Positions 412 through 26,370 of a stretch of DNA of 64,000 nt are shown here, in pieces. Made by a program: the position numbers and the translations under genes. The stretch's first letter is position 1. Each line of letters begins with the position of its first letter. Below the pieces are notes generated by a model. The model did no database searches. It saw nothing but the letters and a program-made list of their open reading frames with translations, and had not been told where the DNA came from. This DNA is from an uncultured Flavobacteriaceae bacterium (lineage in GTDB: Bacteria > Bacteroidota > Bacteroidia > Flavobacteriales > Flavobacteriaceae): NCBI GenBank assembly GCA_947497145.1, contig CANMFQ010000011.1, forward strand, positions 1 to 64,000. The letters run 5' to 3'.

Positions 412-481
412 GATTTAAAGTAAAAAAGTTGTGCAAACTGCTTTATAGCAGTAAATTGAAGTGTCTAAAAATCAATTTATT

Positions 482-1359
482 ATGCACAACTTCAAAGCAA
501 ATTACGAGAAAATATTGAAAGTACTCAAACAAATATCGCAGGAAAAGCTATTGCCTTATCAAAGGCGAAAGCCTGTATTGGCCGATATCGAGGTTATCGC
601 CATCAACCTTACGGCCGAATATCTGGGTGTCGATAGTGAATGTGACCTTTTCAGAAAACTTCCCAAGGACATTAGCTCTGGTATAGAGAGAAGCGTTTAT
701 AACAGGAGACGCCGCAGGTTGTTCCCTTATTTGGAAAAGATAAGAGCGGATCTATCGGCTTCCCTGAACATAGACCAAGACCACTTCATAGTTGACAGTA
801 TGCCGTTGGAAGTCTGTAAGTTGTCCAGAAGTTCCCGCAGTAAAGTATGCCGCGACTCTAGGTATGGGGCACCAGACAAAGGATATTGTGCTTCGCAGTC
901 CTCACACTATTATGGATATAAATTACATGCTACATGTTCGGTAAGCGGGGTTTTCCAGAGTATCGATATAAGCCCGGCTTCAGTGCATGATATACACTAC
1001 CTCAAGGATATAAAGGAGCAGCTCAAAAACTGCACGCTGATAGGTGATCGCGGCTATCTTTCCGCCGAATACCAACTAAACCTGTTCAAGACAAGAAGTG
1101 TCAAACTTGATACGCCAATGCGTAGGAACCAAAAGAACTACAGGGGCAGCCCTATATCTATCGCAAATCGAGAAAAAGAATAGAAACGTTGTTCTCTCAA
1201 TTGTGCGACCAGTTCATGATAAGGAGAAATTATGCCAAGTCATTCGAAGGCTTCAAAACAAGAATATTATCCAAAATATCGGCTCTGACAATAGTTCAGT
1301 TTATCAACAAGGTTGTTTTCAATCGAAATATTAACAACATCAAAATAAGTATTATTTAA
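482..1359 (+). pseudogene. IS982-family transposase, frameshifted
   Basis: This is the DDE transposase of the surrounding element. The first frame (ATG 482; a GTG at 461 is a possible longer start) encodes the N-terminal helical part and the first two catalytic aspartates, in FIVDSMPLEVC and CTLIGDRGYLS, then stops at 1181-1183. The family's continuation, QPYIYRKSRKRIETLF.., which carries the catalytic glutamate in RIETLF, is found in the -1 frame from 1147 and stops at 1357-1359. The switch lies at the GGGG run 1143-1146, where one extra G would restore a single reading frame of about 292 codons. As read, the enzyme is split between its second D and its E. This is either a real inactivating indel or a homopolymer error. 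The site does not resemble a canonical slippery heptamer. Confidence 0.85.
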
Positions 1360-1489: not shown

Positions 1490-2362
1490 ATGTTGGAAAT
1501 AATTCTGCAAATAGTATTTAATAGTATAGTGTCGGGCATCATTTTGAGCCTGATGGTAATTGGGTTTAATTATATTTTTAGTGTAACTAAAGTTTTTCAT
1601 TTGGCTCACGCAGGAATATTTACTCTAGGAGCTTATACATTTTGGCAGCTAACAGACCTAGGACTTCATTGGATTCTAGCATCTACAGTATCTTTATCAA
1701 TAGCTTCAATAATCATTTTATTTATAGAAAAAGCGGTCTACTCACCAATGACTAAAAAGAAGACAGATTCATCGGTTACTCTAATAGCTTCAATGGGAAT
1801 TTATGTCATTATAGTAAATACAATAGCTATGTTTTTCGGAAGTGAAAATAAGATTGTGTCTTTATCTGGAGATACATTTAATATTATAGACGTTATAATT
1901 TCAACAAATCAAATTATTCAATTATTAGTTGGAATTATTATCATAGTTATTTTTTATTTAGGAATAAAACTAACAAAATTAGACCTCTCATTAAAGGCAA
2001 TCGCTAATAATGATATTCTTGGAGAAGTATATGGTATAAATAGCAAAAGGATTAGAAGCTTAGTTATGATAATTGGTTCTGCTTTTGCAGTAATAGCAGG
2101 TATTCTAACCACAATTGAAATTGGTGTTGAACCACATTCAGGAATGAATATCACTTTATCCGCAGCAGCAGTTGCTATTTTAGTAACAAGACTTGACGTA
2201 AAATACTTAACACTCATATCTATTTTATTAGCATTATTTCAGAATACAGTAGAATGGTTTTTAAATGCCCAGTGGAAAGAAGGACTTACTTTTTTAATTT
2301 TATTATTGATAATTCTTTATAAAACAGAAGGCTTAGTAAGCTATAAATTGAGAAAAAACTAG
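1490..2362 (+). CDS. LivH-type branched-chain amino acid ABC transporter permease
   Basis: An integral membrane protein of 290 residues, the usual length for LivH/UrtB permeases, with about eight hydrophobic helices. Family features include the early NSIVSGIILSLMVIGFNYIFSV helix and the FHLAHAGIFTLGAY block, which corresponds to the conserved F..AHG.F...GAY region. A short loop after LKAIANND and IAGILTTIEIG match the cytoplasmic ATPase-coupling region. It is first of five importer genes in the order permease-permease-ATPase-ATPase-binding protein and ends two bases before the next start. Such importers move hydrophobic amino acids, urea or amides; the substrate cannot be told from this sequence. 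It is more A+T-rich than the trp region later in the window. Confidence 0.88.
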   Translation: MLEIILQIVFNSIVSGIILSLMVIGFNYIFSVTKVFHLAHAGIFTLGAYTFWQLTDLGLHWILASTVSLSIASIIILFIEKAVYSPMTKKKTDSSVTLIASMGIYVIIVNTIAMFFGSENKIVSLSGDTFNIIDVIISTNQIIQLLVGIIIIVIFYLGIKLTKLDLSLKAIANNDILGEVYGINSKRIRSLVMIIGSAFAVIAGILTTIEIGVEPHSGMNITLSAAAVAILVTRLDVKYLTLISILLALFQNTVEWFLNAQWKEGLTFLILLLIILYKTEGLVSYKLRKN

Positions 2363-2364
2363 AT

Positions 2365-3231
2365 TTGAATTATATACTACACATATTTGTTCTGTTGGAA
2401 ATTTACATTTTATTAGCACTTAGTGCTAATCAAAAAGTAGGTTTTTCTGGTTTATTGAGTTTGGCTCAAGCGGTAATTTATGGAGTAGGTGCTTATGGAA
2501 TAGCTATTTTTAGTTCTCAACTAGAAATAGGTTATTGGATACCTTTTATATTAGCTATTGGTTCTTGTTTAATTCTTGGGTTAATTTTTAGTTTTATTGC
2601 TGGTAAAGTAATAGAGTTATACTTTAGTCTTGCAACATTAGCAGTTCAAATTATATTCTTTTCAGTAATTTATAATTCTGAGTTTACTAATGGGTCTTAT
2701 GGTATTTCAGGTATTGCATCGCCTAATATTTTTGGTTATGAAATTAATACGCCATTAGATTTTTCTATTTATGCAGGAGTTTGGGTTATGACAGTACTCA
2801 TTTTCCTTAAACGATTTTATTCATTACCACTACATAAACTTATAAAGGCAACTAAAGATGATGAGATAGCAGTTTTAAACCTAGGCAAAAACCCTAAGTA
2901 TTATAAACGAATAAGCATCTTAATTTCTTGTGTCATTTCTGGTATAGCTGGAACTATTTATGCTAGTTATGCATCTTATATAGACCCTTCATCTTTTACA
3001 TTAGATGAATCTATTTTAATACTTAGTATAGTTTTAATTGGTGGTTCTGGTAGACTGATTGGACCAATTGTAGGTGCGTTGATATATATATTGCTTCCAG
3101 AATTTCTTAGGTTTTTAAATATTCCTGAAATGATTGCAGCAAATATGAGAATGATACTCTTTGGTCTTATTTTGGTTTTAATTGTTCGATTTAGACCAAA
3201 TGGAATCTTAGGTAAAAAAGCTTTTAGATGA
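2365..3231 (+). CDS. LivM-type branched-chain amino acid ABC transporter permease
   Basis: The second permease of the importer, 288 residues and about eight to nine TM helices. It has the LivM hallmarks: SLAQAVIYGVGAYGIAI (the family's S.gqa.f.giGAY block), the loop ALKATKDDEIA-like IKATKDDEIAVLNLG, IAGTIYASYASYIDPSSFT and the terminal GGSGRLIGPIVGALI plus VRFRPNGILG. A TTG at 2365 is used as the start because it is the first in-frame start after the previous stop and keeps the first helix. The 3' end overlaps the ATPase gene by four bases, which implies translational coupling. Confidence 0.88.
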   Translation: MNYILHIFVLLEIYILLALSANQKVGFSGLLSLAQAVIYGVGAYGIAIFSSQLEIGYWIPFILAIGSCLILGLIFSFIAGKVIELYFSLATLAVQIIFFSVIYNSEFTNGSYGISGIASPNIFGYEINTPLDFSIYAGVWVMTVLIFLKRFYSLPLHKLIKATKDDEIAVLNLGKNPKYYKRISILISCVISGIAGTIYASYASYIDPSSFTLDESILILSIVLIGGSGRLIGPIVGALIYILLPEFLRFLNIPEMIAANMRMILFGLILVLIVRFRPNGILGKKAFR

Positions 3232-3944
3232 TGGAATTACTAGCTATAAAAAATATAAGTAAATCCTTTGATGGAATCTCTGTTTTAAAAGATTTGTCAT
3301 TGAATATTAATGAAAAAGATATAATTCTTCTTGAGGGCGAAAATGGTGCTGGTAAGAGTACACTATTTAATTTAATAACTCAAACGGATAGTATAGATCA
3401 AGGGGAGATTATACTTAAAGGAAAGTCAACAAGAGGGCTATCGCCACTTTCAGTTGCTCGTAAGGGTGTTGTAAGACTACATCAAGACCCAAGAGTTTTT
3501 AAAAATTTAAGTGTGATAGAAAATTTGTTTTGTGCTAAAGATTATGAAAAAGATATCAGTATTTTTAATCAACTATTTAATCCAAAAAAAACAAAACAGT
3601 TAGAAATAGAAATAAATGAAAAAGCGAATAACATTTTAAAAAGTTTTAAACTAAATCATCTCGAAGAACATTTGGTTGGAAGCCTATCGTATGGACAGCA
3701 GAAACTAATAGCCTTCACTATAATAGCCATGACTAAAGCTGAGTTAATTTTACTTGATGAGCCTTTTGCAGGTTTAAACCCTAAAATGATTGATAAGTTA
3801 ATAGAGATTATAAAGTACTTAAATCAACAAGGAAAAACATTTGTTATAATAGAGCACAATATTATTAAAGCAAAAGAAATCTGTAATAAGCATATCATTT
3901 TGGAAAATGGAGTTGCTAATAGTAAAAACCTAGAGATAGCATGA
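3228..3944 (+). CDS. LivG-type ABC transporter ATPase
   Basis: A 238-residue cytoplasmic ATPase powering the importer. Walker A is GENGAGKST (residues 37-45). The Q-loop region is in VRLHQDPRVFKNLSV, the signature is LSYGQQK in place of the more usual LSGGQ, Walker B is LILLDEPFAGL, and the H-loop His is in VIIEHNI. The insertion between the Q-loop and the signature is typical of LivG rather than LivF. Overlaps of four bases on both sides link it to its neighbours. Confidence 0.9.
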   Translation: MMELLAIKNISKSFDGISVLKDLSLNINEKDIILLEGENGAGKSTLFNLITQTDSIDQGEIILKGKSTRGLSPLSVARKGVVRLHQDPRVFKNLSVIENLFCAKDYEKDISIFNQLFNPKKTKQLEIEINEKANNILKSFKLNHLEEHLVGSLSYGQQKLIAFTIIAMTKAELILLDEPFAGLNPKMIDKLIEIIKYLNQQGKTFVIIEHNIIKAKEICNKHIILENGVANSKNLEIA

Positions 3945-4585
3945 TAGAAACAGTTCTTGAATTAAATAATATATCTACGGGATATCAAGAAAAGATTATT
4001 CTAGACAAGATTTCTTTAACCGTTAAAAGAAATGAAACCCTCGCTATCATAGGACAAAATGGAAGTGGAAAAAGCACATTACTAAAAACAATAGCCAGGA
4101 TAATTTCAGATAATTCTGGATACATTAATTTTAAAACAGAAAAAATAGATAAACTAGCAACTCATAAGTTAAGAGAAAAAGGTTTGTCCTATTTTGTTCA
4201 AGGAGGGTTAGTTTTTACTTCATTGACTGTTAAGGAACATTTTAATTTAGCCTTTAAAGGAAAAAGTAAAGTGAAAAAGAAAGCGCTTTTAGAAGAATGT
4301 TATAAGCAATTTCCTGATTTAGAAAAATTAGAAAATTCTCTAGGAGGTAATCTATCTGGAGGACAAAGACAAATGTTATCTTTTGCAATGTTAATAGCTC
4401 AAGAAACAGATGTATGGCTTTTAGATGAACCAACAGCTGGATTAGCACCTAAAATGGTAGAACAAGTGATAGATTTTTTAAAAAGAATGGAAAGTAAAAA
4501 AACGATTGTAATAGTAGAACATAATGATAAGGTGGTAGGTGAAATAGCTACTAGAGTAATTGATTTAGATAAATTTAAAAATTAA
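3941..4585 (+). CDS. LivF-type ABC transporter ATPase
   Basis: The second importer ATPase, 214 residues, slightly shorter than typical LivF (about 235). It has Walker A IGQNGSGKST, Q-loop FVQGGLVFTSLTV, an intact signature LSGGQRQ, Walker B VWLLDEPTAGLAP and switch His in VIVEHND. Together with the preceding gene it would form the heterodimeric ATPase pair of LivFG transporters. It ends five bases before the binding-protein gene. Confidence 0.9.
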   Translation: MIETVLELNNISTGYQEKIILDKISLTVKRNETLAIIGQNGSGKSTLLKTIARIISDNSGYINFKTEKIDKLATHKLREKGLSYFVQGGLVFTSLTVKEHFNLAFKGKSKVKKKALLEECYKQFPDLEKLENSLGGNLSGGQRQMLSFAMLIAQETDVWLLDEPTAGLAPKMVEQVIDFLKRMESKKTIVIVEHNDKVVGEIATRVIDLDKFKN

Positions 4586-4590
4586 ATGAT

Positions 4591-5706
4591 ATGAAATTAA
4601 AGATTTTATTAGTTTTAGCACTATCAATTTTATTTTCTTGCAAAAATAAAAATAAGAAAACGTTAAACGAAGATGGAAACGTCCTGAAAATAGGTTTAAT
4701 ATTGCCATTAACAGGGAAATATGCAGTTATTGGAGAGGGAGAACAAAAAGGGTTTGAACTAGCCTTAAATGATTTAAATAAAAAACACCCTGAAACTTCA
4801 ATAAAGCTTTATTATGAAGATTTTGCTTCTGAAACAAAAAATGCAGTAACGGCTGCTAATAAGCTTATATCTGTTAATCATGTTGATGCAATAATCACTT
4901 CAACTACAGCAGCTTCAGAAGCGGTATCGCCGATTATTGAAAAAAATAAAATAATTCATTTTGTTATTTCACCAGACACAGATATTTTATCTAAATCCAA
5001 ACATAATTTTAGAATCTACTATAATTTTAATACTGAAGCAGAAGTTGTATCTAGTTTTTTGAAAAACGAAAAACCGGAATCCATAAACTTTTTTTCTTCA
5101 AAATATTCTTCCTTAGAGAAGTTAATAAATAATAACTTGGTTAAAACCTCTAGAAATTTGAATATTGAGATTAAGGAAAATGAGTTTGTTGAAGTGACGG
5201 ATAAGGATTTTAAGAATATTGCCGTGAAGTTTAAAAATAATGATGCAAAAATGTATTTTTTAGCACCTATGACTAATCAGGTTGACCTTTATACAAATCA
5301 ACTTTCAGATTTTGGACTTAAACCTAGTAGTAAAAGAATTATGATGGGTTCTTTTACTTTTAATTGGAAGCCTAAAATTTTTATCTCTTCACTAGAAGGT
5401 TACTTAATACTATCACCTGTATTTCAAACGACAAACTCAAATAACGCTTTTACAGAACGTTTTATGAAAGAGTATAATACGCAACCATCTTTTGATATAG
5501 CATATGCATATGATAATCTTACGATTATGACCGATTTATTAATCAGTAAAACTTCTGATTTTGAAAATTTTTCAAATGGTTTTAATTCTTTAGGTAGTTA
5601 TAAAGGAGTATCAGGAACAATAAACTTCATTGGTCATAATGAAACTAATGCTGAGATAATAATTTCTGAGATTAAAGATGGAAAACAAATACCTTATAAA
5701 AGATAA
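4591..5706 (+). CDS. LivK-like periplasmic-binding lipoprotein
   Basis: A 371-residue type-I periplasmic binding protein of the Leu/Ile/Val-binding family. A lipoprotein signal ends in SILFSC with Cys17 as lipidation site, so it is probably anchored to an envelope membrane. The N-lobe opens with LKIGLILPLTGKYAVIGEGEQKG, the family's start with the ligand-contact region G.yA..G......G. An STTAASEAVSPIIEKN segment fits the usual ligand-binding loop. In this family the same fold acts as an importer component and as a receptor (AmiC-like). The signalling-type genes directly downstream make a sensory role plausible here. Its stop overlaps the methyltransferase start by one base. Confidence 0.85.
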   Translation: MKLKILLVLALSILFSCKNKNKKTLNEDGNVLKIGLILPLTGKYAVIGEGEQKGFELALNDLNKKHPETSIKLYYEDFASETKNAVTAANKLISVNHVDAIITSTTAASEAVSPIIEKNKIIHFVISPDTDILSKSKHNFRIYYNFNTEAEVVSSFLKNEKPESINFFSSKYSSLEKLINNNLVKTSRNLNIEIKENEFVEVTDKDFKNIAVKFKNNDAKMYFLAPMTNQVDLYTNQLSDFGLKPSSKRIMMGSFTFNWKPKIFISSLEGYLILSPVFQTTNSNNAFTERFMKEYNTQPSFDIAYAYDNLTIMTDLLISKTSDFENFSNGFNSLGSYKGVSGTINFIGHNETNAEIIISEIKDGKQIPYKR

Positions 5707-6518
5707 TGGCTACAAGTTTTGATAAAAGAATAGTTAGATATGAAGAAATTCATAGTATTAAAGAGGAACAATGGGATCAATTTTGTTCATTAATACCTTC
5801 TGTAAATGGCTTAAATTTATTAGATATTGGAGCGGGATATGGTTCCTGCACTAGAGAAGTTGTTAAACGCAATTTAGACGTGTCTTTCAAAATAACTTTG
5901 TCAGAAAATAGCGAAGTGCAATTAGCTAGAGGTAAATCTGAATTACCAAAGCTTATTGAAGGATCAAAGTCAACTGTTGATTTTGTCTATGATGATATAA
6001 CATCTAGCAATTTTAAAAGTAATTCTTTTGATATTGTAATGTGTAAAATGGTAATTCATGAAATAAACCCTAAAAAACAATTATCTGCTTTTAAAGAAAT
6101 ATACAGAATATTGAAGCCAAATGGCTTTGTCGTTTATTGGGATCTTTTTTTAAACGATATAACCAAACCTATATTTTCAAAAGTCATTTTAGAAAAAGAT
6201 CGACTTTGTGGATTTAAGACATTGGTTAAAAATCGAAATTTTTTAAAATCTCAAACTACTTTTAATTATTTTGCAGAAGCTGGATTTAAAAATCTAACTA
6301 AAAAGTTTGATATTATGTCGCCGGTAATCTCTAGTAATCGATTGAAAGATGAATTTAAAGGAGATGAAAAATTGCTTGATAAATGGCATAGCTATATAAG
6401 AAATTTAGCTAATCATACTGATCCATTTTTGCTATTTAATCTATCTTATATTGATGATGGTAAATGTTTAACATTTACGCCCCAAAAAGTAATAATTAAA
6501 GCATATAAAATTGAATGA
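5706..6518 (+). CDS. Class I SAM-dependent methyltransferase
   Basis: A 270-residue protein with a Rossmann methyltransferase core. Motif I is LLDIGAGYGS (residues 38-47), the acidic post-I strand is in ITLSENSE, motif II-like is FDIVMCKMVIHEI, and YRILKPNGFVVYWD matches the L.PGG motif region. The layout resembles UbiE/Methyltransf_11 small-molecule methyltransferases. The substrate is unknown. Translational overlap with the binding protein on one side and with the next gene on the other makes it an integral part of this operon. It may modify the imported ligand or a signalling protein (CheR-style), but no CheR-specific domain is seen. Confidence 0.8.
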   Translation: MATSFDKRIVRYEEIHSIKEEQWDQFCSLIPSVNGLNLLDIGAGYGSCTREVVKRNLDVSFKITLSENSEVQLARGKSELPKLIEGSKSTVDFVYDDITSSNFKSNSFDIVMCKMVIHEINPKKQLSAFKEIYRILKPNGFVVYWDLFLNDITKPIFSKVILEKDRLCGFKTLVKNRNFLKSQTTFNYFAEAGFKNLTKKFDIMSPVISSNRLKDEFKGDEKLLDKWHSYIRNLANHTDPFLLFNLSYIDDGKCLTFTPQKVIIKAYKIE

Positions 6519-6519
6519 T

Positions 6520-8361
6520 ATGAATCAAATAGATTTACACTATTTACATAATGTATTATTAAGGAAATTGCCATTTACAATTAGTGGGAATATATCTGCT
6601 GAATCTCTAATATTTGATTTTTTAAAGTCAGTTGCAGAATCACATCTTTTAGGAGACAATAATGATATTAAATTTATTATGGGAGGTTACTCTAAAATTA
6701 AATTTAATAATCTAAATGAGATTTTTGAACCTCAAAAATGGAAAACAGATAGATTAAATAGTTTTTTCTATTATGATTACGAGAATGATGGTGTTGAAAA
6801 AACCATTACTATTTATCAGTATTTTTTAAAAAAATTATTCACAAATCAAAACAAGCCTTACAGAAACATTACTAATATAATTTGTGACAATAATCACAGT
6901 GGAAATAATTTTAGAGTTAAAATTGTAAAAACTAAAAGCAAAAAAATTAGACTTTTATACAATATAAGAGAGAGAGTTATAGAAGCAATAATTCCTATGA
7001 ATTTCTTTAACCCACATTTTTTGATTGATGAGATCGACGATTTAGATAGCGACTTAATAGTTAGAGGAACGAAAAACAATTATCAATATTTCAGAAAACA
7101 AAAACTCGTTAATGATGAAGCTAATGAAGAAAATAAAAAAGAGGAGTTATTAAAAAGAATATTTAGTGATGCTACTTATAAAAACTTAACAGACCCTATT
7201 AACTGCTTTACCAAAATAGATGTTGATAAGCTTTCAAATCATTTGAATCTTAATTTTGTAGATGAAAAAAATGCTGATAGTATTAATGAAATTCTATATT
7301 TATTCTTAACGGCGGGTTTATTATCTTTCCTTTTAGGAATGTGTAGTATAGAATATTTTGTGTCAGTCGCAAATAATGTTAAATCTAAAAAGCTATCAGT
7401 AGGTAGTATTGCCGTTGGGTATCATTCTGACCATTTAGATAAGAATTATAGAGCGTTATTTAATATTCTTACAAACCATATAGCTGCTAACCTAGCTTCT
7501 CAACTATTATTAGACTATAATATGGCTCAAGAGTTTACGGATATTCGTATGAATCAACTTGACTTTTTAAAAAGATTTAAAGAATATTATGGGCTTAGGC
7601 AAAGTAATGGAGAAGATATACATGATGAAGAAAGATCTAAAGCAATCTCTCAAAACTCAGACAAAAACATTTGTGAATTTCTTGATGATAATGATTATTC
7701 TACGAAACTAATAAATAATTGGTTTGGAACTGGGTTTAATGATTATTTAAGTAAAATTTTAAGTGCTGAAAGAATAGATTATGGAATGTACCAATCTGTT
7801 CATACTAATCAATCTAGCCATATAGATACTTGTAAAAAAATAAATTTATTTTATCAAAAGTTAAATTTAGATGAGTATTCTAAAACTACAAAAGGTTTAA
7901 CTATCAAAAAAAAACATTATAATTTAAATTCTACAGCAGATTCTGATAATAATGCTTTGGTAAATATTTATTTACCACATATGTTGATTGAACATATAAA
8001 GAACGAACATAAAGAAAATTGTACCATTAAATGCAAATGCGTCGATAATAAAATTTTAATTGATGTTCATTATAATAGTGATATTCCCGTGCCATCTTTA
8101 ATAGTTAAATTAAGTGAATATCACAAAACAGAAAATAATAAAGGTAATTTTTCAAGTTTTTTGATTTCCAATTATAACGCGATTAGAGCAGTTGGGGATC
8201 TAAAGATATATGATGGTAATGAGCGTTTTAGTTTGAGTTTGAAAAATGATTTTAAAGTGAAGCTTGAAAGCAATAACGGAATTTTCGAATATATTGGAAG
8301 TAGTGCTGATTTAGTACCAACGAGTCACCTTATTTATGAATTAACCTATCAACTTTATTAA
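6520..8361 (+). CDS. Unknown 613-aa protein with possible degenerate histidine-kinase ATPase fold
   Basis: No family is recognised with certainty. A TTG at 6511 would add three residues; ATG 6520 is preferred. There is no signal peptide. One hydrophobic stretch (EILYLFLTAGLLSFLLG, about residue 260) may be a buried helix. The last 130 residues follow the order of a GHKL ATPase: an N-box-like helix LPHMLIEHIKNEHKENC, strands around KILIDVHYNSDIPVP, then GNFSSFLISNYNAIRAVGDL, which resembles the G-box helix and following strand of histidine kinases (GLGL.i....v...gG.l). Key glycines are reduced to G542 and G557-like positions, so it would be a degenerate kinase or pseudokinase. The receiver proteins encoded downstream support this reading, but it is inference. 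Confidence 0.5.
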   Translation: MNQIDLHYLHNVLLRKLPFTISGNISAESLIFDFLKSVAESHLLGDNNDIKFIMGGYSKIKFNNLNEIFEPQKWKTDRLNSFFYYDYENDGVEKTITIYQYFLKKLFTNQNKPYRNITNIICDNNHSGNNFRVKIVKTKSKKIRLLYNIRERVIEAIIPMNFFNPHFLIDEIDDLDSDLIVRGTKNNYQYFRKQKLVNDEANEENKKEELLKRIFSDATYKNLTDPINCFTKIDVDKLSNHLNLNFVDEKNADSINEILYLFLTAGLLSFLLGMCSIEYFVSVANNVKSKKLSVGSIAVGYHSDHLDKNYRALFNILTNHIAANLASQLLLDYNMAQEFTDIRMNQLDFLKRFKEYYGLRQSNGEDIHDEERSKAISQNSDKNICEFLDDNDYSTKLINNWFGTGFNDYLSKILSAERIDYGMYQSVHTNQSSHIDTCKKINLFYQKLNLDEYSKTTKGLTIKKKHYNLNSTADSDNNALVNIYLPHMLIEHIKNEHKENCTIKCKCVDNKILIDVHYNSDIPVPSLIVKLSEYHKTENNKGNFSSFLISNYNAIRAVGDLKIYDGNERFSLSLKNDFKVKLESNNGIFEYIGSSADLVPTSHLIYELTYQLY

Positions 8362-8363
8362 AT

Positions 8364-8855
8364 ATGATACATTTTTGGGATAATAAAAATTATAGAGGCA
8401 GAGAAGGTTTCTATAATAAAATATATGAAAAATATGGAATTAATGTTTCAACTAATGAATTAGATTTAACAAATGACATTAAAGTGATATTTCGTCATGA
8501 TCATTTAGAAAGAGAATTTTATAAAGATCGAGTGATTATTAGTTACGGTGGCGATTCTCAAAAAAAAGAAAATACTTTCGATAATTTAAGAGGTACAGTT
8601 TCATACTTATATTTTAAAATAATTGAAGAGAATATTGAATCTTTTTATAATAAAATTTCAGAATTAAACATTATTGATGCTGAACACGTCCATAGCTGCC
8701 TGTTTAATAATGATAAAAAGTTAGAATCTCTATTACTACCTTTCATTTACATTTCACCGTTTGCAGGTATTGAAGATGTTTATAATCTAGATGGAACAGA
8801 AAATAAGGTTGAAAAAGCGTATAAGGCAATAAACAATTATTTAAATAAAAAATAA
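8364..8855 (+). CDS. Unknown 163-aa protein of the liv/receiver operon
   Basis: Not recognised. It is a soluble-looking alpha/beta protein without signal peptide or TM helix, rich in Asn, Lys, Asp and aromatic residues. The segment RVIISYGGDSQ followed by long helices could be a small regulatory domain, but no motif is decisive. It starts two bases after the previous stop and ends one base before the next start, so it is certainly part of the operon. A role as an adaptor between the kinase-like and receiver proteins is speculation from position only. Confidence 0.7.
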   Translation: MIHFWDNKNYRGREGFYNKIYEKYGINVSTNELDLTNDIKVIFRHDHLEREFYKDRVIISYGGDSQKKENTFDNLRGTVSYLYFKIIEENIESFYNKISELNIIDAEHVHSCLFNNDKKLESLLLPFIYISPFAGIEDVYNLDGTENKVEKAYKAINNYLNKK

Positions 8856-8856
8856 A

Positions 8857-10608
8857 ATGCCTGAAAAACTACTTTTTATTACAAATCTTGAAGATAATTT
8901 ACCTACTTCAATTGATAATGGAAAATATACCGTTAATTCGTATAATAATCACCCAAAAAACAAAACTTTCACAAGTCATAAAGACACGTCCGGAAACACT
9001 ATTTATGTAATTGATATTCATTATAAATTAAAAGACCAAAGCCAATTACAATCTCAAAATGGTATTGATTTTTACAGATATTTACTTAATTTTTTTAGTA
9101 AATGTCAAAAGAATTTAAAAGTGATTTTTTACTCACCGTTACCACTTGATTTCCTTTTAAAAGAGAAACCTGAAAATCATATTCTGAGTGTATTACCATT
9201 TATACAAATAAAAGGAGACGGTGACTTTGAAAAAGAATTATTAGCCACAATTAACAAAAATACGAATGAATGGCCTATTTTAAATAGTGCTTCAGAAAAC
9301 CTATTAAGTGGTTGGGCTTTATATAAACAACAAAACCCAACAACTCATAAAATTAATTCTGAACTAAGTATACTTATTTTAGACGACCAAATTGATGAAT
9401 GGAAAATATGCTATAATACTATTTTCGAAGACAATATCAATATTAAGGAATTAAAATATGATAAAAAGAAAGAGCAAAACGGTCATTTTTCAACTTTAAA
9501 ATTTGGGGATTCTTTCAAAAACGATGTTCAAAAAAGTGAGTTAATTTTAGCTGATTTCTATTTAGAAGAACAACATAAACCATTTCATTGGATGAGTCAT
9601 GACGAACTTAAATTAAAAAGTGGTTATAAATTGTTCGATAAAATTAAAGGTCAAGACGGAATTAATCCTTCCGCAGCATATATTATACATTCTTCTAGTA
9701 ATAAAATTCAATATTTCAAAAACATTTACAACGATGGTTTAGATAATTGGTTAGTTAAAGACACAAGAGGTGGTGTGTCCACAAATCAGAAAAAATATAA
9801 TTATGAAATTTTTAAAAAGGAAATTGAATTATATACAACTGGAGAAAATGCTACTTTATTTAAAAGGTTAACTGTTATTAGAGAAAAAATACAAAATTTT
9901 GAATCTATTCAAACCCCTTTTTTTTGGTGGGATAACAATACAGATAAACAGTTAGTAATTAACACCCTAAATTATTGTTGGAAAAATTTAAGGAATGTTA
10001 TAACAAAAGAAAGCCATACCCTACAAAATAATAACACTTCTGGATTTTTGTATAATTCTATTGTAAATGAATTAGGTAAAATTTTAGAGATTAAAAAAGT
10101 TAATTCTTTAGTAAGTTCCCCCAATCTCATTTTTAATTTTTTAAAGCAATTTAGAAATGAAGGTAGTCACTACAACGCAACAAGAGTTATTAATATTAAA
10201 GAATGCATACTCTACTTTGAAATATGGTTGAAAATTCTGTCTAAACAAAAAATCTCAGTGTTCAAAAATAGTGATGGGCAAAATGGGTATTTGTATCAAG
10301 ATTTTGGTAACGGACAACCTTCCTTTACAAATAGAAAACTGCTTTGTCTTTTACAGCTTCTAAATAGTAATTGCTACGGGAAATTAGAAATACAAAACAC
10401 TGATCTTGAAAAGAGAATTCAACAACAATGTAAAGATTTGTTGGAATTTGCATTAAAAGATATCAATACTTTAAAAAAGGAGTTATTTGAAACTAGTCAT
10501 CAAATTCAATTAGCTACTATCCTTGGCACAAGTATTACGAAGGATGCTAGTAGTTATTATTTAGATACAAATGAACAAACTGGATATTTTGAACTTTTTG
10601 AGACTTAA
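8857..10608 (+). CDS. Receiver-domain protein with HEPN-like C-terminal domain
   Basis: A 583-residue cytoplasmic protein with three recognisable regions. Residues 1-130 form an alpha/beta domain with IYVIDIHYKL and VIFYSPL (89-95), shared with the protein encoded next. Residues 170-305 fit a receiver: acidic pair D176-D177 in LILDDQ, phospho-acceptor candidate D233 in LILADFYL, Ser279-281 at the Thr/Ser position and Lys301 in WLVKD. Residues 375-480 are helical and contain FRNEGSH, R433-N434 with H438, which matches the R-x4-6-H motif of HEPN RNase-type domains, preceded by a long helix. If right, this is a phosphorylation-controlled HEPN effector. The receiver call is moderately firm; the HEPN call rests on a short motif and helical context. 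Confidence 0.6.
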   Translation: MPEKLLFITNLEDNLPTSIDNGKYTVNSYNNHPKNKTFTSHKDTSGNTIYVIDIHYKLKDQSQLQSQNGIDFYRYLLNFFSKCQKNLKVIFYSPLPLDFLLKEKPENHILSVLPFIQIKGDGDFEKELLATINKNTNEWPILNSASENLLSGWALYKQQNPTTHKINSELSILILDDQIDEWKICYNTIFEDNINIKELKYDKKKEQNGHFSTLKFGDSFKNDVQKSELILADFYLEEQHKPFHWMSHDELKLKSGYKLFDKIKGQDGINPSAAYIIHSSSNKIQYFKNIYNDGLDNWLVKDTRGGVSTNQKKYNYEIFKKEIELYTTGENATLFKRLTVIREKIQNFESIQTPFFWWDNNTDKQLVINTLNYCWKNLRNVITKESHTLQNNNTSGFLYNSIVNELGKILEIKKVNSLVSSPNLIFNFLKQFRNEGSHYNATRVINIKECILYFEIWLKILSKQKISVFKNSDGQNGYLYQDFGNGQPSFTNRKLLCLLQLLNSNCYGKLEIQNTDLEKRIQQQCKDLLEFALKDINTLKKELFETSHQIQLATILGTSITKDASSYYLDTNEQTGYFELFET

Positions 10609-10619
10609 AACGACTAACA

Positions 10620-12263
10620 ATGAGTTTACCCATACATATCTGTAATAAATCACAAGAAATGGAATCAAACTTTGATACTATTGATTCTTTTAAAAATTTT
10701 GATGATTGCAGCTTTAGTAATGTACCTTATATATTATTAAATATTCACTTGTCATGGGAAAATACACTAATGAGCTTAAATTTAGGTTTTCAAATTGCTC
10801 AAGAAGTTAGAGTGAAAAAGAAATATAAAAAACCAATAATTTTTTATAGCCCATTAACACAAACTTTTTTTGAAGAAAAAGCAAAAACGAATATAAAATA
10901 TAAATTGCTTTTTGGAAGAGGCTCTAGTTTTGTTCAAATACCTACAGATATTAAAAATGTAGAAAGTATATCAGAAAAAATTAATCCGCTATCAAATGCA
11001 GCTTTAATTGATATTACAACTATGTTATGTGATATAAAGGGTATGATATTAGATAAACTTAATCATAACCTGAAAATTACAAATAAGCCTATTGAAGTAA
11101 TAAATGAAGTGATTCCGTATTTATCAAAAGAACAATTGCTAAACATAAGAGCGGATGAATATGGTAATAAATTATCTAATCTAATTAAATATGATAATAT
11201 AAGTGATTTTTTTAAAATCAAAAAAGAGTTTATAGATTTATGTAGTCTATGGTTAGGCGTAAAAGAAGCCACAAAAAAAATAATTACAAAGAACAAACCT
11301 GATATTTTATTGGTTGATGATGAAACTGAGGTTCTTGATAAAATTGAACAGAACTTAGAATCAGAGTTTAATATCTACCGAACAACTTCTGGTGCAGAAG
11401 CTTTATCAATACTACAAAAAGACACCTCTAATTCAATTATGGCTATTATTGCCGATTGGCGTTTATATAAAGATTCCTCAAATACAAAATGGCAGCCTTA
11501 TCAAGGCTATGAAGTTCTTGAAATAGCAGCAAAAACAGGTTTTAGAACCTTAATTGCGCTTACTTCGCAACCAGAATATATTGTCAATCAGATCAGAAAT
11601 TCACTCGGTATCCGTTTCGTTTTATTTAAAAAAGACGAAGTTATTTATAATGGTAATTGGTCAATACTCTCTACCATTCTTAAAGAATCTATTGAGGAAC
11701 AAATTTCTATTGTTTCTGCTATTCCTAGCGCAGCTACAAGATGGTGGGGAAATATGGATAATAAAAAAAATAAAGTGATTGTTCAAGGTTCTCTATTTTA
11801 TCAATATTTAAAAGCTATGCACTCTGTTAATAAAACCCTTTTCTTTAAAGAGATTGACCAAAAATGTGATGAAATTTGGAGTTACCTTATGGATAATTAT
11901 TTAATCAATGGTAACTTTGATGAAGTTGAAGATATTCGTGAAAGATATAGCTTAAAAAAAACAGATAAAAATCCTATGTTGTTTGATGTTCTTGTTTTAA
12001 GAAGAATTTGGTTAGCGTTATGGTATAAAGAACATGACGATGCCTTTAAAATATCACAGGAAGAGATCTTAGAAAATAAAATAAATATCTTCAAAATTAT
12101 TTCAGAAAAAAAACAAGAGAGAAACAATGAAGAATCTAGTGCGAAGGCAGAAATTACTAAACTATGTATTGTAATACATCAAATTCGTAACTATCAAATC
12201 TTACCAGAAGAAAAAAGTTGGCTTCTTTCTAAACCTGAAATAGGTTTGGATAATTTGAAATAA
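10620..12263 (+). CDS. Response regulator with duplicated N-terminal domain and canonical receiver
   Basis: A 547-residue cytoplasmic protein. Residues 35-130 resemble the N-terminal domain of the preceding protein, with PYILLNIHLSW and IIFYSPL (73-79). Residues 227-350 are a clear receiver domain with DILLVDDETEV giving acidic pair D233-D234, phospho-acceptor D279 in IIADWRL, T315 in LIALTSQ and K337 in VLFKKD. The 190-residue C-terminal part is helical and ends without a recognisable DNA-binding motif, so the output is probably protein-protein contact. It is the last gene of the operon, 11 bases after the previous stop, and is followed by a 458-base noncoding spacer. Confidence 0.75.
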   Translation: MSLPIHICNKSQEMESNFDTIDSFKNFDDCSFSNVPYILLNIHLSWENTLMSLNLGFQIAQEVRVKKKYKKPIIFYSPLTQTFFEEKAKTNIKYKLLFGRGSSFVQIPTDIKNVESISEKINPLSNAALIDITTMLCDIKGMILDKLNHNLKITNKPIEVINEVIPYLSKEQLLNIRADEYGNKLSNLIKYDNISDFFKIKKEFIDLCSLWLGVKEATKKIITKNKPDILLVDDETEVLDKIEQNLESEFNIYRTTSGAEALSILQKDTSNSIMAIIADWRLYKDSSNTKWQPYQGYEVLEIAAKTGFRTLIALTSQPEYIVNQIRNSLGIRFVLFKKDEVIYNGNWSILSTILKESIEEQISIVSAIPSAATRWWGNMDNKKNKVIVQGSLFYQYLKAMHSVNKTLFFKEIDQKCDEIWSYLMDNYLINGNFDEVEDIRERYSLKKTDKNPMLFDVLVLRRIWLALWYKEHDDAFKISQEEILENKINIFKIISEKKQERNNEESSAKAEITKLCIVIHQIRNYQILPEEKSWLLSKPEIGLDNLK

Positions 12264-12721
12264 TTTTAAAACAAAAAAATATTCATACATTTGTATTGAG
12301 TTTGATTCTAAGAAGAGGAAAAAGGAATCAAATTCAAACGGTTACAAAATAGTTCATTGAAATACGAAGTGTATATCGAGGATGACCAGCAAGCAAGTGC
12401 GCTTGATTAGGGGTTCATTATTAATCATCCAAAAAGATTACGCTATGAAGTATTTTTACGAAACTTTTTTGGGTAATAAAACCCAAATACTACTATTTAT
12501 TACATCAAATTGCGTTCAACTGTATTTTCTTACAGCTACGTATTACATTACATTCTATCAAATAGATTTGTTGTCTCACTATACATTCTTTATGAGACGC
12601 AAGACTATTACAGCAAAATTATGTTGTAATAGAGTACATCCCATTCACAGCTTATTGAAAACATTAGCAAAATCTCATTCTGCTAAAGCACCTCTATTGT
12701 TTAATCCTTAAACCACATAAA
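12264..12721 (+). other. Noncoding hairpin-rich spacer, possible structured RNA or long leader
   Basis: There is no convincing protein here. A TACATTTG box (12286-12293) matches the Bacteroidota -7 element, though no well-spaced -33 TTG is visible. Downstream are several hairpins: TTTGATTC/GAATCAAA (12301-12308 with 12325-12332), TTTGGGT/ACCCAAA (12468-12474 with 12481-12487), CTATTACA/TGTAATAG near 12606-12633, GTCTCA/TGAGAC near 12572-12597, and TTAGCA/TGCTAA near 12664-12686. Such a density is more than expected for plain intergenic DNA and suggests a long structured 5' leader for the cassette starting at 12722, or a separate small RNA. The 109-codon open frame across it (12382-12711) has non-protein-like composition. 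Confidence 0.4.
12286..12293 (+). promoter_or_regulatory. Possible -7 promoter element (TACATTTG)
   Basis: It matches TAnnTTTG of the Bacteroidota housekeeping sigma factor and sits 23 bases after the last gene of the signalling operon. No TTG at the usual 19-21 base distance is present, so the call is tentative. A transcript from here would start at about 12300 and open with the perfect 8-bp hairpin at 12301-12332. Confidence 0.35.
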
Positions 12722-12898
12722 ATGACTCTTCCAAAAACACATACCGAACAAATCAAGTCACAGTACGAAGCGCTTTTAGCTGAAGACAATGAGGTTGCTA
12801 TTAATTCAGATAATAATTCAACTGACAAACGCAGCCTAAGTCAGATATTAAGAAATGTTAAATCACTAACTAAAGCCATTATAAGTCATGAAGCATAA
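12722..12898 (+). CDS. Small 58-aa protein, first gene of the envelope cassette
   Basis: ATG 12722 opens a 58-codon frame beginning MTLPKTHTEQIKSQYEALLA, then an Asn/Asp-rich hinge and a basic helix ending ISHEA. It is soluble, charged and mostly helical, and no family is recognised. Its stop codon overlaps the start of the next gene by 11 bases, a strong sign that it is translated and coupled to it. It may be a cytoplasmic partner of the coiled-coil membrane protein encoded next; that is inferred from position alone. Confidence 0.6.
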   Translation: MTLPKTHTEQIKSQYEALLAEDNEVAINSDNNSTDKRSLSQILRNVKSLTKAIISHEA

Positions 12899-14066
12899 TG
12901 AAATAAGACAAATAGCAAAGCGAGACGTACGTTTACGCTCAATTCCTGAAAGGAAAGGTGAAATGTATATATGGACACCAGGGATGAGAAACATACTAAA
13001 CAGTTACTTAGAAGCAGTATCTCAATTTAAAAAAACCTTAGATAAACCTAATAATAAAATATTAGCGACTACAAAAAATGCAGCTGTTAATCTTTTAAAT
13101 GATTTGAAAGACCTTTCAAATTCAGTAGCTAATAGGTTAGAAAAGTTAAGAACTAAACTTGAAAGTAAAACTGAAGAACTTAGAGAAGCTAAAGAAGAGT
13201 TAGAGGAGTTAACGACAGAGCTAGCAGAATCTGGAAAAATAATAACCACTAATACTAGTCATGCACCACAAAAAGTAAAAGTTAAGCGTTTAGTAATCAT
13301 CATTATTACTATAGCTATTGTAGCTGCTGAAGTATTAATGGCACTTGGTTTCTTTTCGGGTTATGGGTATGTCTCTACACCTATGGAGAATACCATGCGA
13401 ACAGGAAGTTACGTGTTAATAGTTATCATTTATTTAATTGTAATAAATGTTACGGACCCAAGGGGTACCAAAAGCTTTAGTCGCTTTTCAGAAATCATCA
13501 TCATCATACAGGTATTATTTACAATATCTACTGGAATTGCTGGAAGATTACCAGGAGTTGCCGAAGAATGGTGGTACGCTGCATTAGTAACAAACGTACC
13601 TTTTCTACTATTGGCTGCTTATATTATCTCTCTTTTTTATTTTCTTAGGATTTATAAAATGAAAAGAAATGAAGGTTTTACAGAAACCAAAGAAGTAACT
13701 CAAACTGTTATTAAGGAAATTGATCCAGATATAGCAGAAGCTAATGGATTAGAATTAAAAATAAAGGCTTTAAATAATGAAGTCAATGAAATTGAAAATG
13801 ATATTTCTAGGCTAGAAGGTAATGTGCCTTCAGAAGCATATCAGTTGGAAAAAGAACAGATGGAAAGATTAAGTAAAGTAGAGGATTTGGTTAGCTCGAT
13901 TAACGATGCACAAATATCTAGAGATAATATTTTAAATCAAATAGATCACGATTTAAAACTATATCAATCCTATTATATGTCTCAATTTAAAAAGACACAA
14001 GATAGTTTATTCGCTGGGCCAAAGTGGCCAAACCGCGAAGATGTAAAATTATTTTTTAACCTATAA
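12888..14066 (+). CDS. Coiled-coil / four-TM membrane protein, unknown function
   Basis: A 392-residue protein with a helical N-terminal domain, a strong heptad-type coiled coil at about residues 80-120 (ANRLEKLRTKLESKTEELRE and following), then four TM segments between about residues 137 and 255. The first is VIIIITIAIVAAEVLMALGFF, the last FLLLAAYIISLFYFL. A second coiled coil at about 290-355 follows, and the protein ends VKLFFNL. Both coiled coils should be on the same side, probably cytoplasmic given the basic flanks. The design resembles a membrane scaffold. Its start overlaps the 58-residue gene by 11 bases and its end is 10 bases before the lipoprotein gene. Confidence 0.75.
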   Translation: MKHNEIRQIAKRDVRLRSIPERKGEMYIWTPGMRNILNSYLEAVSQFKKTLDKPNNKILATTKNAAVNLLNDLKDLSNSVANRLEKLRTKLESKTEELREAKEELEELTTELAESGKIITTNTSHAPQKVKVKRLVIIIITIAIVAAEVLMALGFFSGYGYVSTPMENTMRTGSYVLIVIIYLIVINVTDPRGTKSFSRFSEIIIIIQVLFTISTGIAGRLPGVAEEWWYAALVTNVPFLLLAAYIISLFYFLRIYKMKRNEGFTETKEVTQTVIKEIDPDIAEANGLELKIKALNNEVNEIENDISRLEGNVPSEAYQLEKEQMERLSKVEDLVSSINDAQISRDNILNQIDHDLKLYQSYYMSQFKKTQDSLFAGPKWPNREDVKLFFNL

Positions 14067-14076
14067 ACAAAAAATT

Positions 14077-14838
14077 ATGAGAACATTTTTTTATGCCATT
14101 TTAGTAAGTATTCTATTCACAGCATGTAATGTTGGAGAATGTGAAACTACAACTTATATCGAATCTACACTATTGGTAGATCTAACTGACGAAAAACTTA
14201 TTAACGATGTTAATAATGAATTAACAGCTTTTGAAGATTTTGCGAAAAAGAAGCGCTTGATAAATATACAAGATTGTGGGAAGTCTACAGTTAGTCTTGC
14301 TTCTATATCATCTAGCTACAGCTTAAAGGTAACTAAAGCAGAGCTAGAATTAATGACCAAAAACCTTACTGGAAGAGAAATCCAACAACGGAAAAATACA
14401 GATACGATTTTCACTCAACTTAATGCCAATTATGAGGATTTAAAATCGAAAGTTTTAGAAAGCCCTGAATTAATGGAATCTACAGATATTGCTACTGTTG
14501 TGGCTAAAGCAATAGTACGCTTAAAAAATAATGATATAGCTAACCTATTCGTGTTTTCAGATTTTATTACATATACCGAAAACTATAATTTTTATAGAAA
14601 TGCACCAGATAAAGAAAATGCTTTAAAAGTATTTAAAGAGATGGTTGGTGTTTCGTTGTTCCAAGAAATGGAATCTGTGATTCAGTCAGGCACATTTGAG
14701 AGGCTTTATTTAATAACTCTTAATCCGCCAAAGAAGATGTCTAAAAAGCAGGTAAATAAGGTTCACACATTTTGGCAAACGGTGTTTTTAGAGATGGGAA
14801 TAGAACTAATAATCACAGATTCATTATCTAATCTGTAA
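14077..14838 (+). CDS. Lipoprotein with possible degenerate vWA fold
   Basis: A 253-residue lipoprotein. The signal ends in ILFTAC with Cys17 as the lipidation site. The mature part starts with a strand TLLVDLTDEK (D35), where vWA domains carry DxSxS. The later NLFVFSDF (156-163) corresponds to the usual hydrophobic strand ending in S/TD, and LYLITLNPP is a further core strand. The metal-site residues are not all conserved, so this is at best a degenerate vWA domain. Cysteines 21 and 72 may form a disulfide. It lies between the coiled-coil membrane protein and the membrane PBP, suggesting a periplasmic partner for one of them. Confidence 0.6.
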   Translation: MRTFFYAILVSILFTACNVGECETTTYIESTLLVDLTDEKLINDVNNELTAFEDFAKKKRLINIQDCGKSTVSLASISSSYSLKVTKAELELMTKNLTGREIQQRKNTDTIFTQLNANYEDLKSKVLESPELMESTDIATVVAKAIVRLKNNDIANLFVFSDFITYTENYNFYRNAPDKENALKVFKEMVGVSLFQEMESVIQSGTFERLYLITLNPPKKMSKKQVNKVHTFWQTVFLEMGIELIITDSLSNL

Positions 14839-14871
14839 AGTGTTTAACTAATAGTTAAAAACAAAATAGTT

Positions 14872-20541: not shown

Positions 20542-20952
20542 ATGCTTCGCATACAATTAAAACGATTAGGTAAAAAGAAAGTAAAGCACCTTGATTATAC
20601 TGTAGAAAAAACACCTAAAACACTGCGAGAGTTAATTGAATTTTGTGTGCAATCAGAGGTGAAGCGCTACAATGAAAAGCGAGAAAATGTAGACTTACTA
20701 TCTTTTCTAACCCCAAAAGACATACAAGAGCAAGGTGAAAAAGGCAAAATAAGTATTGGCGACATTGAAAATAAAACGCTCGCTATAGCATCTGAAGCGA
20801 TTACCAATGCAGTACAAGGGTTTCAAGACGGACTATTTGTGGTTTTTATTGATGATGATGAAATCAAAGAAATAGATGAACCCCTTTCTATCACACCTAA
20901 TAGTACCATCGCATTTATACGTTTAACTTTTTTATCAGGCACCTATTGGTAA
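20542..20952 (+). CDS. Unknown 136-aa protein upstream of DUF4132 protein
   Basis: A soluble, mixed alpha/beta protein of 136 residues with no signal peptide. The first half is basic (LKRLGKKKVKHLDYTVEK) and helical (TLRELIEFCVQSEV). The second half ends in a hydrophobic strand pair around LFVVFIDDDEIKEIDEPLSI and STIAFIRLTFLSGTYW. I do not recognise a family. It is 57 bases upstream of the giant DUF4132 gene on the same strand and probably co-transcribed with it. Confidence 0.65.
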   Translation: MLRIQLKRLGKKKVKHLDYTVEKTPKTLRELIEFCVQSEVKRYNEKRENVDLLSFLTPKDIQEQGEKGKISIGDIENKTLAIASEAITNAVQGFQDGLFVVFIDDDEIKEIDEPLSITPNSTIAFIRLTFLSGTYW

Positions 20953-21009
20953 AAAAACATAAATCAAAACTTTCATAGTACAGCAACTATTAATTTATAA
21001 AAACACCGC

Positions 21010-25968: not shown

Positions 25969-26052
25969 GACCATACCTTTTTTACTATCAGTGAATAATG
26001 TAGTGTCTGAATATATAATTTAAGTAACACACAGCTGTTTAAAACAAAAAAA

Positions 26053-26370
26053 ATGGCACTGAAAACAAAACGACTATTCAGTAGTAAAAATCCTTTTTCA
26101 AAAGGGGGCTTTTACTTTATCGTTACCGGTATTCTTTGCTACACAAGTAACAAAACGGTGTTTTTCACTGACGGTTATCGTACTGAATATGATCGTTTTT
26201 GGAAAGATACTGGTTATGGTATTTTGTGCTTTGTAAACACTTTTATAGTAGGTTTTTTAATTTATAGCCTGCTAAAAAATAAACCGATACCACACAAGAC
26301 TATGGTTTCTCTTTTTTTGGAAAGGAATCGCTATAATACAATTTATAACACGCGCTACATTAGAAAATGA
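26053..26370 (+). CDS. Small two-TM membrane protein, unknown
   Basis: A 105-residue protein with two hydrophobic segments (GGFYFIVTGILCYTS and GILCFVNTFIVGFLIYSLL) separated by a polar loop DGYRTEYDRFWKDTGY, and with basic ends. No family is recognised. The stop overlaps the DNA-ligase start by four bases, so it is translationally linked to it. Confidence 0.6.
   Translation: MALKTKRLFSSKNPFSKGGFYFIVTGILCYTSNKTVFFTDGYRTEYDRFWKDTGYGILCFVNTFIVGFLIYSLLKNKPIPHKTMVSLFLERNRYNTIYNTRYIRK

Follow-up and report, generated by a model that had tools for sequence, protein, structure and literature searches.

The stretch analyzed here, 64,000 nucleotides from an uncultured Flavobacteriaceae bacterium (assembly GCA_947497145.1, contig CANMFQ010000011.1, positions 1 to 64,000 of the forward strand; hereafter the window), runs from base 1 of its contig, and the host genome is 5.1 Mb in size. 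Near its start lies a gene cassette in which a Liv-type importer is joined to a methyltransferase and four further proteins, described in a first-pass annotation as signalling-like. Ten plus-strand genes occupied positions 1490-12263, and the tight packing reported there was confirmed, with intergenic distances of 2, -4, -4, 5, -1, -8, 2, 1, and 11 bases (from -8 to +11). The ten genes stood, and two conserved genes downstream (12888-14838), 624 bases on, had been missed: both have same-place counterparts in a second genome (G1211), where a membrane-protein and a lipoprotein gene also follow gene 10, and this extends the conserved set from 12263 to 14838. Comparison between genomes indicated that the cassette is real, mobile, and broader than first described, and that it is found in distantly related bacteria.

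Genes 1-5 (all features of the window described here are on the plus strand) encoded two BPD_transp_2 permeases, two ATP-binding cassette (ABC) ATPases, and a type-I periplasmic binding protein: LivH-like gene 1 (1490..2362; PF02653, E 3.1e-20), LivM-like gene 2 with a TTG start (2365..3231; PF02653, E 2.2e-30), LivG-like gene 3 (3228..3944; PF00005, E 7.9e-29), LivF-like gene 4 (3941..4585; PF00005, E 1.5e-30), and the binding protein, gene 5 (4591..5706; Peripla_BP_6, PF13458, E 1.5e-37). All five components exceeded the Pfam cut-offs, as expected for the full Liv-type importer claimed at first pass. Gene 5 has a lipoprotein-like signal by eye, was the sole Peripla_BP_6 match found in its own genome, and had a Leu/Ile/Val-binding homologue as its nearest PDB entry (E 6.7e-12). 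Genes 1-5 stayed under the substrate-specific equivalog cut-offs of NCBIfam for Liv and Urt proteins (for example, UrtB, 82 of 250 bits; LivG, 155 of 362; UrtA, 44 of 493); a urea transporter was rejected, the scores being far under the cut-offs. The set shares its five component families with the Liv/HAAT branched-chain or urea-type importers (LivHMGF plus type-I binding protein), but differs from them in falling below these cut-offs and in its linkage to signalling genes.

The importer is followed by gene 6 (5706..6518), a S-adenosylmethionine (SAM)-dependent methyltransferase (PF13649, E 3.2e-15), and by gene 7 (6511..8361; 616 residues, or 613 from an internal ATG), which takes the slot of GHKL-type proteins in other copies. 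No Pfam or NCBIfam family was found over cut-off in gene 7 or in gene 8 (8364..8855), a small protein of 163 residues with an unassigned fold. The phospho-acceptor box and GHKL N-box of a histidine kinase were not found in gene 7 by family scans or with a GHKL-core profile; residues 315-333, alone in aligning to the box of the relatives, did so without significance and, by eye, lack the box histidines. The term "kinase-like", given previously to this protein, could not be shown to apply, with no family over cut-off and no match to the GHKL-core profile. Since gene 7 and its G1211 counterpart (likewise with no match to the GHKL core of the relatives) carry none of the GHKL features, we refer to gene 7 as a kinase-slot protein, possibly a pseudokinase. 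"Signalling-like" was a guess for both genes 7 and 8: beyond the absence of a family over cut-off, PADLOC returned just VakA for gene 8.

Genes 9 (8857..10608; 583 residues) and 10 (10620..12263; 547 residues) both start with a receiver-like domain followed by a receiver, and end in a HEPN-like part and another conserved part, respectively. The proposal of two receiver-domain proteins was borne out, by a Response_reg match (E 0.003, below cut-off) for gene 10 and by alignment with relatives for gene 9. The receiver of gene 9 in the window is divergent and visible in this alignment only; D176, D177, D233, S281, and K301 were identical in all four proteins (window, G1211, G135, and G375), the profile matched CheY chains in a structure search (best E 0.0038), and the G135 protein gave a sub-threshold match to an inactive receiver (iREC, E 3.4e-5). 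For gene 10, the five proteins aligned all had D233, D234, D279, and K338, and either T or S at position 315 (T315 in the window); the gene 10 profile found receiver structures (best E 0.0005). Judged from these alignments, the acceptor residues of the receivers are intact in genes 9 and 10. The C-terminal motif of gene 9, R433-N434-xxx-H438 (RNxxxH), was also identical in all four proteins; the motif of the HEPN superfamily is R-x4-6-H. The end of gene 9 is probably HEPN-like, with a predicted RNA-cutting domain, and this part had been missed when the receiver domain was correctly recognized. A single-sequence structure model of the protein had a pLDDT (predicted local distance difference test) of 34. 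No DNA-binding family of Pfam or NCBIfam was matched in genes 7-10.

The closest parallel in gene order was found in G1211 (L120, minus strand), with twelve genes arranged as in the window: LivH, LivM, LivG, LivF, binding protein, methyltransferase, genes 7-10, coiled-coil membrane protein, and lipoprotein. Aligned identities were 52, 69, 44, 55, 55, 45, 31, 28, 33, 37, 21, and 29% in gene order, with E values of 1e-29, 1.7e-58, and 2e-118 for genes 7, 9, and 10; gene 8 (BLAST E 0.007) was assigned mainly by position. A chance neighbourhood was rejected because this order is kept. The coiled-coil membrane protein (12888..14066; four predicted membrane segments) was of the same place and type in both genomes (21% identity over 315 residues). 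Its assignment was based on position, size, and membrane segments; similarity to the membrane proteins of G135 and G1161 was not significant. The lipoprotein (14077..14838) is VWA-like by eye and has no Pfam family; against a profile of the lipoproteins of G135, G1161, and G1211, it gave a probability of 71% (E 3.6e-5) over 32 C-terminal columns.

Searches with the binding protein matched 84 of 395 phylum genomes, and 40 stretches, chosen by eye, were fetched around the listed places. Three of the 40 (L060 of G135, L050 of G375, and L051 of G320) contained the same plan of importer, binding protein, enzyme, and signalling genes with divergent proteins, and L053 (G410) contained importer, binding protein, and methyltransferase, followed by the contig end. 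Profiles of gene 10 (G000, G135, and G375 as rows of the first, G1161 added to the second) were searched against three draws of 86, 139, and 180 genomes, overlaps not removed, and led to G1161 and G1211. Weak matches centred on the receiver were not counted as relatives: up to 20.1 bits in a further 98-genome search, 30.1 in the 139, and 29.3 in the 180 (2 of 3, 6 of 8, and 82 of 84 of the matching genomes, respectively; a few matches start up to ~50 positions before the receiver). Similarity beyond the receiver domain was obtained in G375 (86-genome draw), G135 and G1161 (139), and G000 and G1211 (180), with E values of 8e-20 for G135, 6e-8 for G375, and 2e-10 for G1161; near the end of this G1161 contig there is a further gene 10-like pair, which is split. 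In all five genomes, the gene 10 relative lay beside an ABC importer and a binding protein (Liv-type in four, Opp/Dpp-type in G1161). A neighbourhood search had been proposed at first pass as the test of a real cassette, and its outcome was positive: the signalling proteins recur beside importer genes in other genomes.

The distribution was sparse. Among relatives of the host, gene 10 beyond the receiver was present in none of 97 other genomes, including 13 congeners (3 of 98 matched: the window, and two others at 20.1 and 17.6 bits). Only the window itself was recovered by gene 7 in 395 phylum genomes (1/395) and, in 396 family genomes (1/396), by a query joining genes 7-9 to the first part of gene 10. 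No relative of genes 7 and 9 was found in plasmids or viral contigs; gene 10 gave just two Afipia receiver-domain matches in plasmids, the profiles of gene 10 and the binding protein found no relative in viral contigs, and the G135 kinase-slot protein and G1211 gene 10 found none in plasmids. A set of the same plan was seen on a Nostoc carneum plasmid, which was among the matches listed for LivM (918 plasmid records) and for the binding protein (70 plasmid records; 254 when the Nostoc binding protein served as the query in return). There, the importer and binding protein are accompanied by a protein of 975 residues, matching a methyltransferase below threshold (E 0.043), and by another that matches a receiver, also below threshold (E 0.014). 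This was the only one of six plasmid neighbourhoods opened to have the plan; the other five, one of them unannotated and read from open reading frames (ORFs), look metabolic. Searched against plasmids and the genome collection (1 of 55 stretches), the 975-residue protein of Nostoc recovered nothing but itself; within its own order, 3 of 291 genomes had a match, two of these being fragmentary (18-19 bits).

In four relatives, the kinase slot holds divergent GHKL-type proteins; for one of them, that of G1161, the model is of a histidine kinase. These proteins had 975 (G1161), 1181 (G135), and 1365 (G320) residues, and the G375 gene consists of two overlapping ORFs (L050 10391-13970), the first ending shortly after a phospho-acceptor-like box. 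The proteins of G1161 and G135 were homologous (28% over 366 residues, E 4e-25), that of G320 matched G1161 with E 3e-8, and an ENxIRN box is unchanged across all four. When the G1161 core was modelled (mean pLDDT 65), histidine kinases were retrieved first, HK853 being the best (E 5.3e-5): all 11 chains at E ≤0.001 were histidine kinases, with a poor overall superposition (TM 0.29). A hydropathy screen detected segments in the permeases and the coiled-coil membrane protein and at the signal of the lipoprotein, and none in genes 8-10; gene 7 has one near residues 257-276 (maximum 2.03), absent in G1211. The kinase-slot proteins of G135, G375, and G1161 and the Nostoc protein have one or two segments and that of G320 has none, and no common position was seen on inspection of the unaligned proteins. 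The signalling proteins are probably soluble.

The window, G1211, G135, G375, and G320 each have two permeases and two ATPases (LivH of the last by eye, L093 1396-2313), while in G1161 an Opp/Dpp-type importer (L107; SBP_bac_5, E 5.6e-76) stands in for the Liv importer. Trees were built from the fetched stretches with 26 (LivM), 27 (LivF), 29 (LivH), and 30 (binding protein) tips, sequences covering <60% of the query being dropped; G320 LivH is not in the LivH tree. The window, G1211, G375, and G320 formed one group for LivM (ultrafast bootstrap, UFboot, 99), and the window, G1211, G375, and G135 one group each for LivF and LivH (UFboot 100 each). LivM of G135, Nostoc, and L053 joined at UFboot 61 only, and LivH of Nostoc and L053 at 81. 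Because the permease and ATPase trees group the copies and the binding-protein tree mostly does not, permeases and ATPases largely moved together with the signalling genes, the binding protein having diverged or been exchanged.

Judged from gene content, a variable enzyme goes along with the importer. The enzyme slot contains a methyltransferase in the window and G1211; a threonine-dehydratase-like pyridoxal phosphate (PLP) enzyme (E 1.7e-82, under the model cut-off) and a methyltransferase beside the Liv importer in G135; a short-chain dehydrogenase/reductase (SDR)-like protein (by eye) and a PLP enzyme closest to CysM (E 3.3e-14) beside the Liv importer in G375; a B12-binding radical SAM protein in G320; and a radical SAM enzyme beside the Opp/Dpp-type importer in G1161.

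The operon had a guanine-plus-cytosine (GC) content of 27.5%, compared with 30.8% for 12264-17820 and 36.1% for 18795-64000, and the lowest-GC stretch of operon length in the window starts at 1801 (27.4%). The first-pass claim of A+T-richness, phrased relative to a trp region, held against the rest of the window (27.5 vs 36.1%). Just upstream lies an ORF for an IS982-family transposase (461..1183; NCBIfam transpos_IS982, E 1.3e-51), in agreement with the insertion element noted before; it is a border feature and not a working part, and is probably incomplete because only positions up to 189 of the 243 in the profile were matched. The suggested horizontal acquisition was supported by low GC together with the lack of a gene 10 relative beyond the receiver domain in the 13 congeners, some of which are incomplete. 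The lipoprotein gene is immediately followed (14872-17820) by one for a 982-residue protein, part of which is a PBP1C-like transglycosylase/transpeptidase; no such gene was seen next to the lipoprotein gene in the G1211 copy, where just 953 bases of contig follow. Further on (20542-27458), a 1652-residue DUF5724/DUF4132 protein is preceded by a 136-residue protein and followed by a WGR/ATP-dependent ligase-domain protein. Since the 1652-residue protein (marker 21010-25965) was found in none of the 13 congeners searched, the accessory region seems to extend beyond the cassette.

Three copies (G135, G1161, and G1211) lie near restriction, nuclease, or TerY-P-like genes: hsdS and hsdR upstream of the cassette in G135; hsdM near it in G1161, together with a TerY-P-like triad of VWA, PP2C (below cut-off), and kinase genes, which separates the lipoprotein gene from the second gene 10-like pair (L108 6138-8702); and a YhcG-type nuclease upstream in G1211. 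G375 has PP2C upstream and a DNA-methylase-like ORF (by eye) downstream. No restriction gene was recognized among the ORFs of the window up to 34000, part of which were family-scanned. Beside the G320 copy (L051 383-2686; L094 9389-12334), one gene encodes a VWA protein (Pfam VWA_2, E 2.5e-16) and another, read by eye, may encode a tubulin-like protein. In G410 (L053 642-6932), a 2097-residue protein, STAND-like by eye, lies upstream of the cassette-like importer, which has a fused LivG-LivF as in Nostoc.

Among known systems, Pst-PhoR/PhoB and other importer-coupled two-component systems likewise combine an ABC importer, a protein in the kinase slot, and receivers in one set. The cassette differs from Pst-PhoR/PhoB in that no DNA-binding family was matched, and in its enzyme slot, HEPN-like end, exchangeable importer, and conserved membrane protein and lipoprotein. 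The vWA-MoxR/VMAP ternary conflict systems, like the cassettes, include receiver domains and radical SAM enzymes (PMC7159879); a system of this type was rejected, with no MoxR-type AAA+ ATPase among the matches listed for the ten operon genes and two downstream genes. HEF_HK/Response_reg_2 elements consist of a divergent kinase-receiver pair near restriction-modification genes, a setting resembling that of the cassettes, and the words "transporter" and "HEPN" are absent from the main text on them (PMC8011034). They differ from the cassettes, with neither PF19191 nor PF19192 among the matches listed for the scanned cassette proteins. For the TerY-P triad (VWA, PP2C, and kinase), a commentary describes action against T7-like phages (PMC7699616); such a triad adjoins the signalling set in L108 (PP2C below cut-off) as the neighbour of one copy, and does not belong to the set of the window. 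The open literature searched yielded no account of a gene set like this one, though it may have been mentioned before elsewhere.

What the copies display directly is the recurrence and order of the genes, the exchange of importer and enzyme, the receiver residues, the RNxxxH motif, and the kinase-like fold of one relative's core. We tentatively favor a mobile import-modify-sense signalling cassette with RNase output, as a possible account rather than an established one. The ABC importer and binding protein would bring in an amino-acid-like (window type) or peptide-like (G1161 type) compound, and the co-encoded enzyme (methyltransferase, PLP enzyme, SDR-like protein, or radical SAM enzyme) would modify it. 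The large, probably soluble kinase-slot protein, which is of divergent GHKL type in four relatives and lacks recognizable kinase motifs in the window type, would then detect the product and set the two receiver proteins. The HEPN-like receiver protein (gene 9) is the likely output, through RNA cleavage that may arrest growth or stop infection, and the coiled-coil membrane protein and lipoprotein would tie the complex to the envelope. Amino-acid PLP enzymes beside Liv importers fit this scheme, judged from few cases, and the pairing of a peptide-type enzyme and importer in G1161 is suggestive only. Taken together, the set has the look of a sensing system that has not been described before, perhaps one serving defence or stress. 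It is doubtful, but worth stating, that it represents a stress or immune class in which an exchangeable nutrient importer serves as the sensor, a dedicated enzyme acts on what is imported, a soluble kinase or pseudokinase reads the product, and the receivers free a HEPN RNase. In the window/G1211 branch, kinase chemistry may have been lost and the signal may be passed on by allostery.

Several observations weigh against this account. The window gene 7 has neither a kinase motif nor a profile match to the GHKL core of the relatives; the kinase-slot proteins of three relatives, scanned whole, contained no Pfam HATPase; and the profile of the GHKL core found no solved structure in the PDB at E up to 1. 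The HEPN assignment consists of the motif and of sub-threshold matches in G135 alone (DUF4145, E 0.0016; HEPN_RiboL-PSP, E 0.013), no gene 9 relative was recognized in G1161 or G320, and gene 8 showed no relation beyond the window/G1211 pair when compared with the other copies. Enzymes and importers match weakly. Among NCBIfam models, the G1161 radical SAM enzyme came closest to a peptide maturase (E 4.2e-14), with heme-biosynthesis enzymes scoring nearly as well (6.9e-14 and 7.1e-14) and all of these far under the cut-offs; for the B12 radical SAM protein of G320, no amino-acid substrate is evident. The weak peptide-maturase match led us to lower our estimate of the import-modify-sense mechanism, and the estimate of the broader stress or immune class was lowered with it. 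LivF of G320 and Nostoc fell outside the reported LivF group, and the cassette binding proteins formed no clade except for the window, G1211, and L053 (UFboot 100). The cassette lipoproteins are VWA-like by eye, yet without a Pfam VWA match; the Nostoc set resembles the cassette in order and type only; and in PADLOC-DB 2.0.0, searched with 7 of the 10 operon genes, the only matches were generic ATPases and methyltransferases and VakA (gene 8, E 0.024).

The complete importer and intact receivers would also be expected if the cassette regulated nutrition in a Pst-Pho-like manner, the activity of the importer setting a two-component relay that tunes the uptake and use of an amino-acid-like nutrient, with the HEPN-like part as a non-catalytic interaction module. 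Importer-coupled two-component signalling is an established kind (Pst-PhoR/PhoB), and this counts in favor of such regulation. We nevertheless regard it as rather unlikely, since genes 7-10 matched no DNA-binding family, the type of importer is exchangeable, RNxxxH is invariant in 4 of 4 proteins, and three copies have restriction, nuclease, or TerY-P-like neighbours.

The first-pass model, in which the binding protein is an extracellular receptor that relays ligand binding directly through the membrane to the kinase-like protein, appears improbable. Type-I binding proteins can act as receptors, and the coiled-coil membrane protein and lipoprotein are conserved parts that could serve such a relay. 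On the other hand, genes 8-10 have no membrane segment and G1211 lacks that of gene 7, all four permease and ATPase genes are kept in five sets (window, G1211, G135, G375, and G320), and the enzyme slot accompanies the importer. Sensing after import seems more likely than a relay across the membrane, given signalling proteins that look soluble, the exchange of importer type between copies, and the enzyme genes that go with the importer.

A self-signal is more improbable still: the enzyme would make a modified amino acid or peptide that is exported and re-imported, so that the cassette measures the density or identity of kin and the HEPN-like protein responds. Enzyme slot and importer do vary in otherwise similar sets, and the binding proteins do not group although the permeases do; against this, no exporter gene was recognized in the sets (not tested systematically) and there is no known signal. 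That an importer-enzyme operon and a signalling operon are independent modules lying together by chance is very improbable, in spite of the different combination of modules in G1161, since the twelve-gene order is kept in G1211 at 21-69% identity, 5 of 5 gene 10 relatives lie beside an importer (although three to four of them are rows of the search profile), and the importer trees group the copies.

For the preferred import-modify-sense cassette, we infer the imported compound, the action of the enzyme on it, the direction of signalling, the RNase activity, and the role in defence or stress from these sequences. Importers are generally read as serving nutrition, and importer-coupled signalling is already known; the cassette is a variant of it that has an exchangeable importer, an enzyme slot, a HEPN-like output, and envelope partners, with functions as proposed above. 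An importer and enzyme exchanged as an input module before conserved receivers, one of which ends in a HEPN-like part, would directly link small-molecule uptake to RNA-targeting responses. The cassette offers testable candidates for the ligand, the enzyme product, and the effector, and gives reason to re-examine other "orphan" importers near restriction genes.

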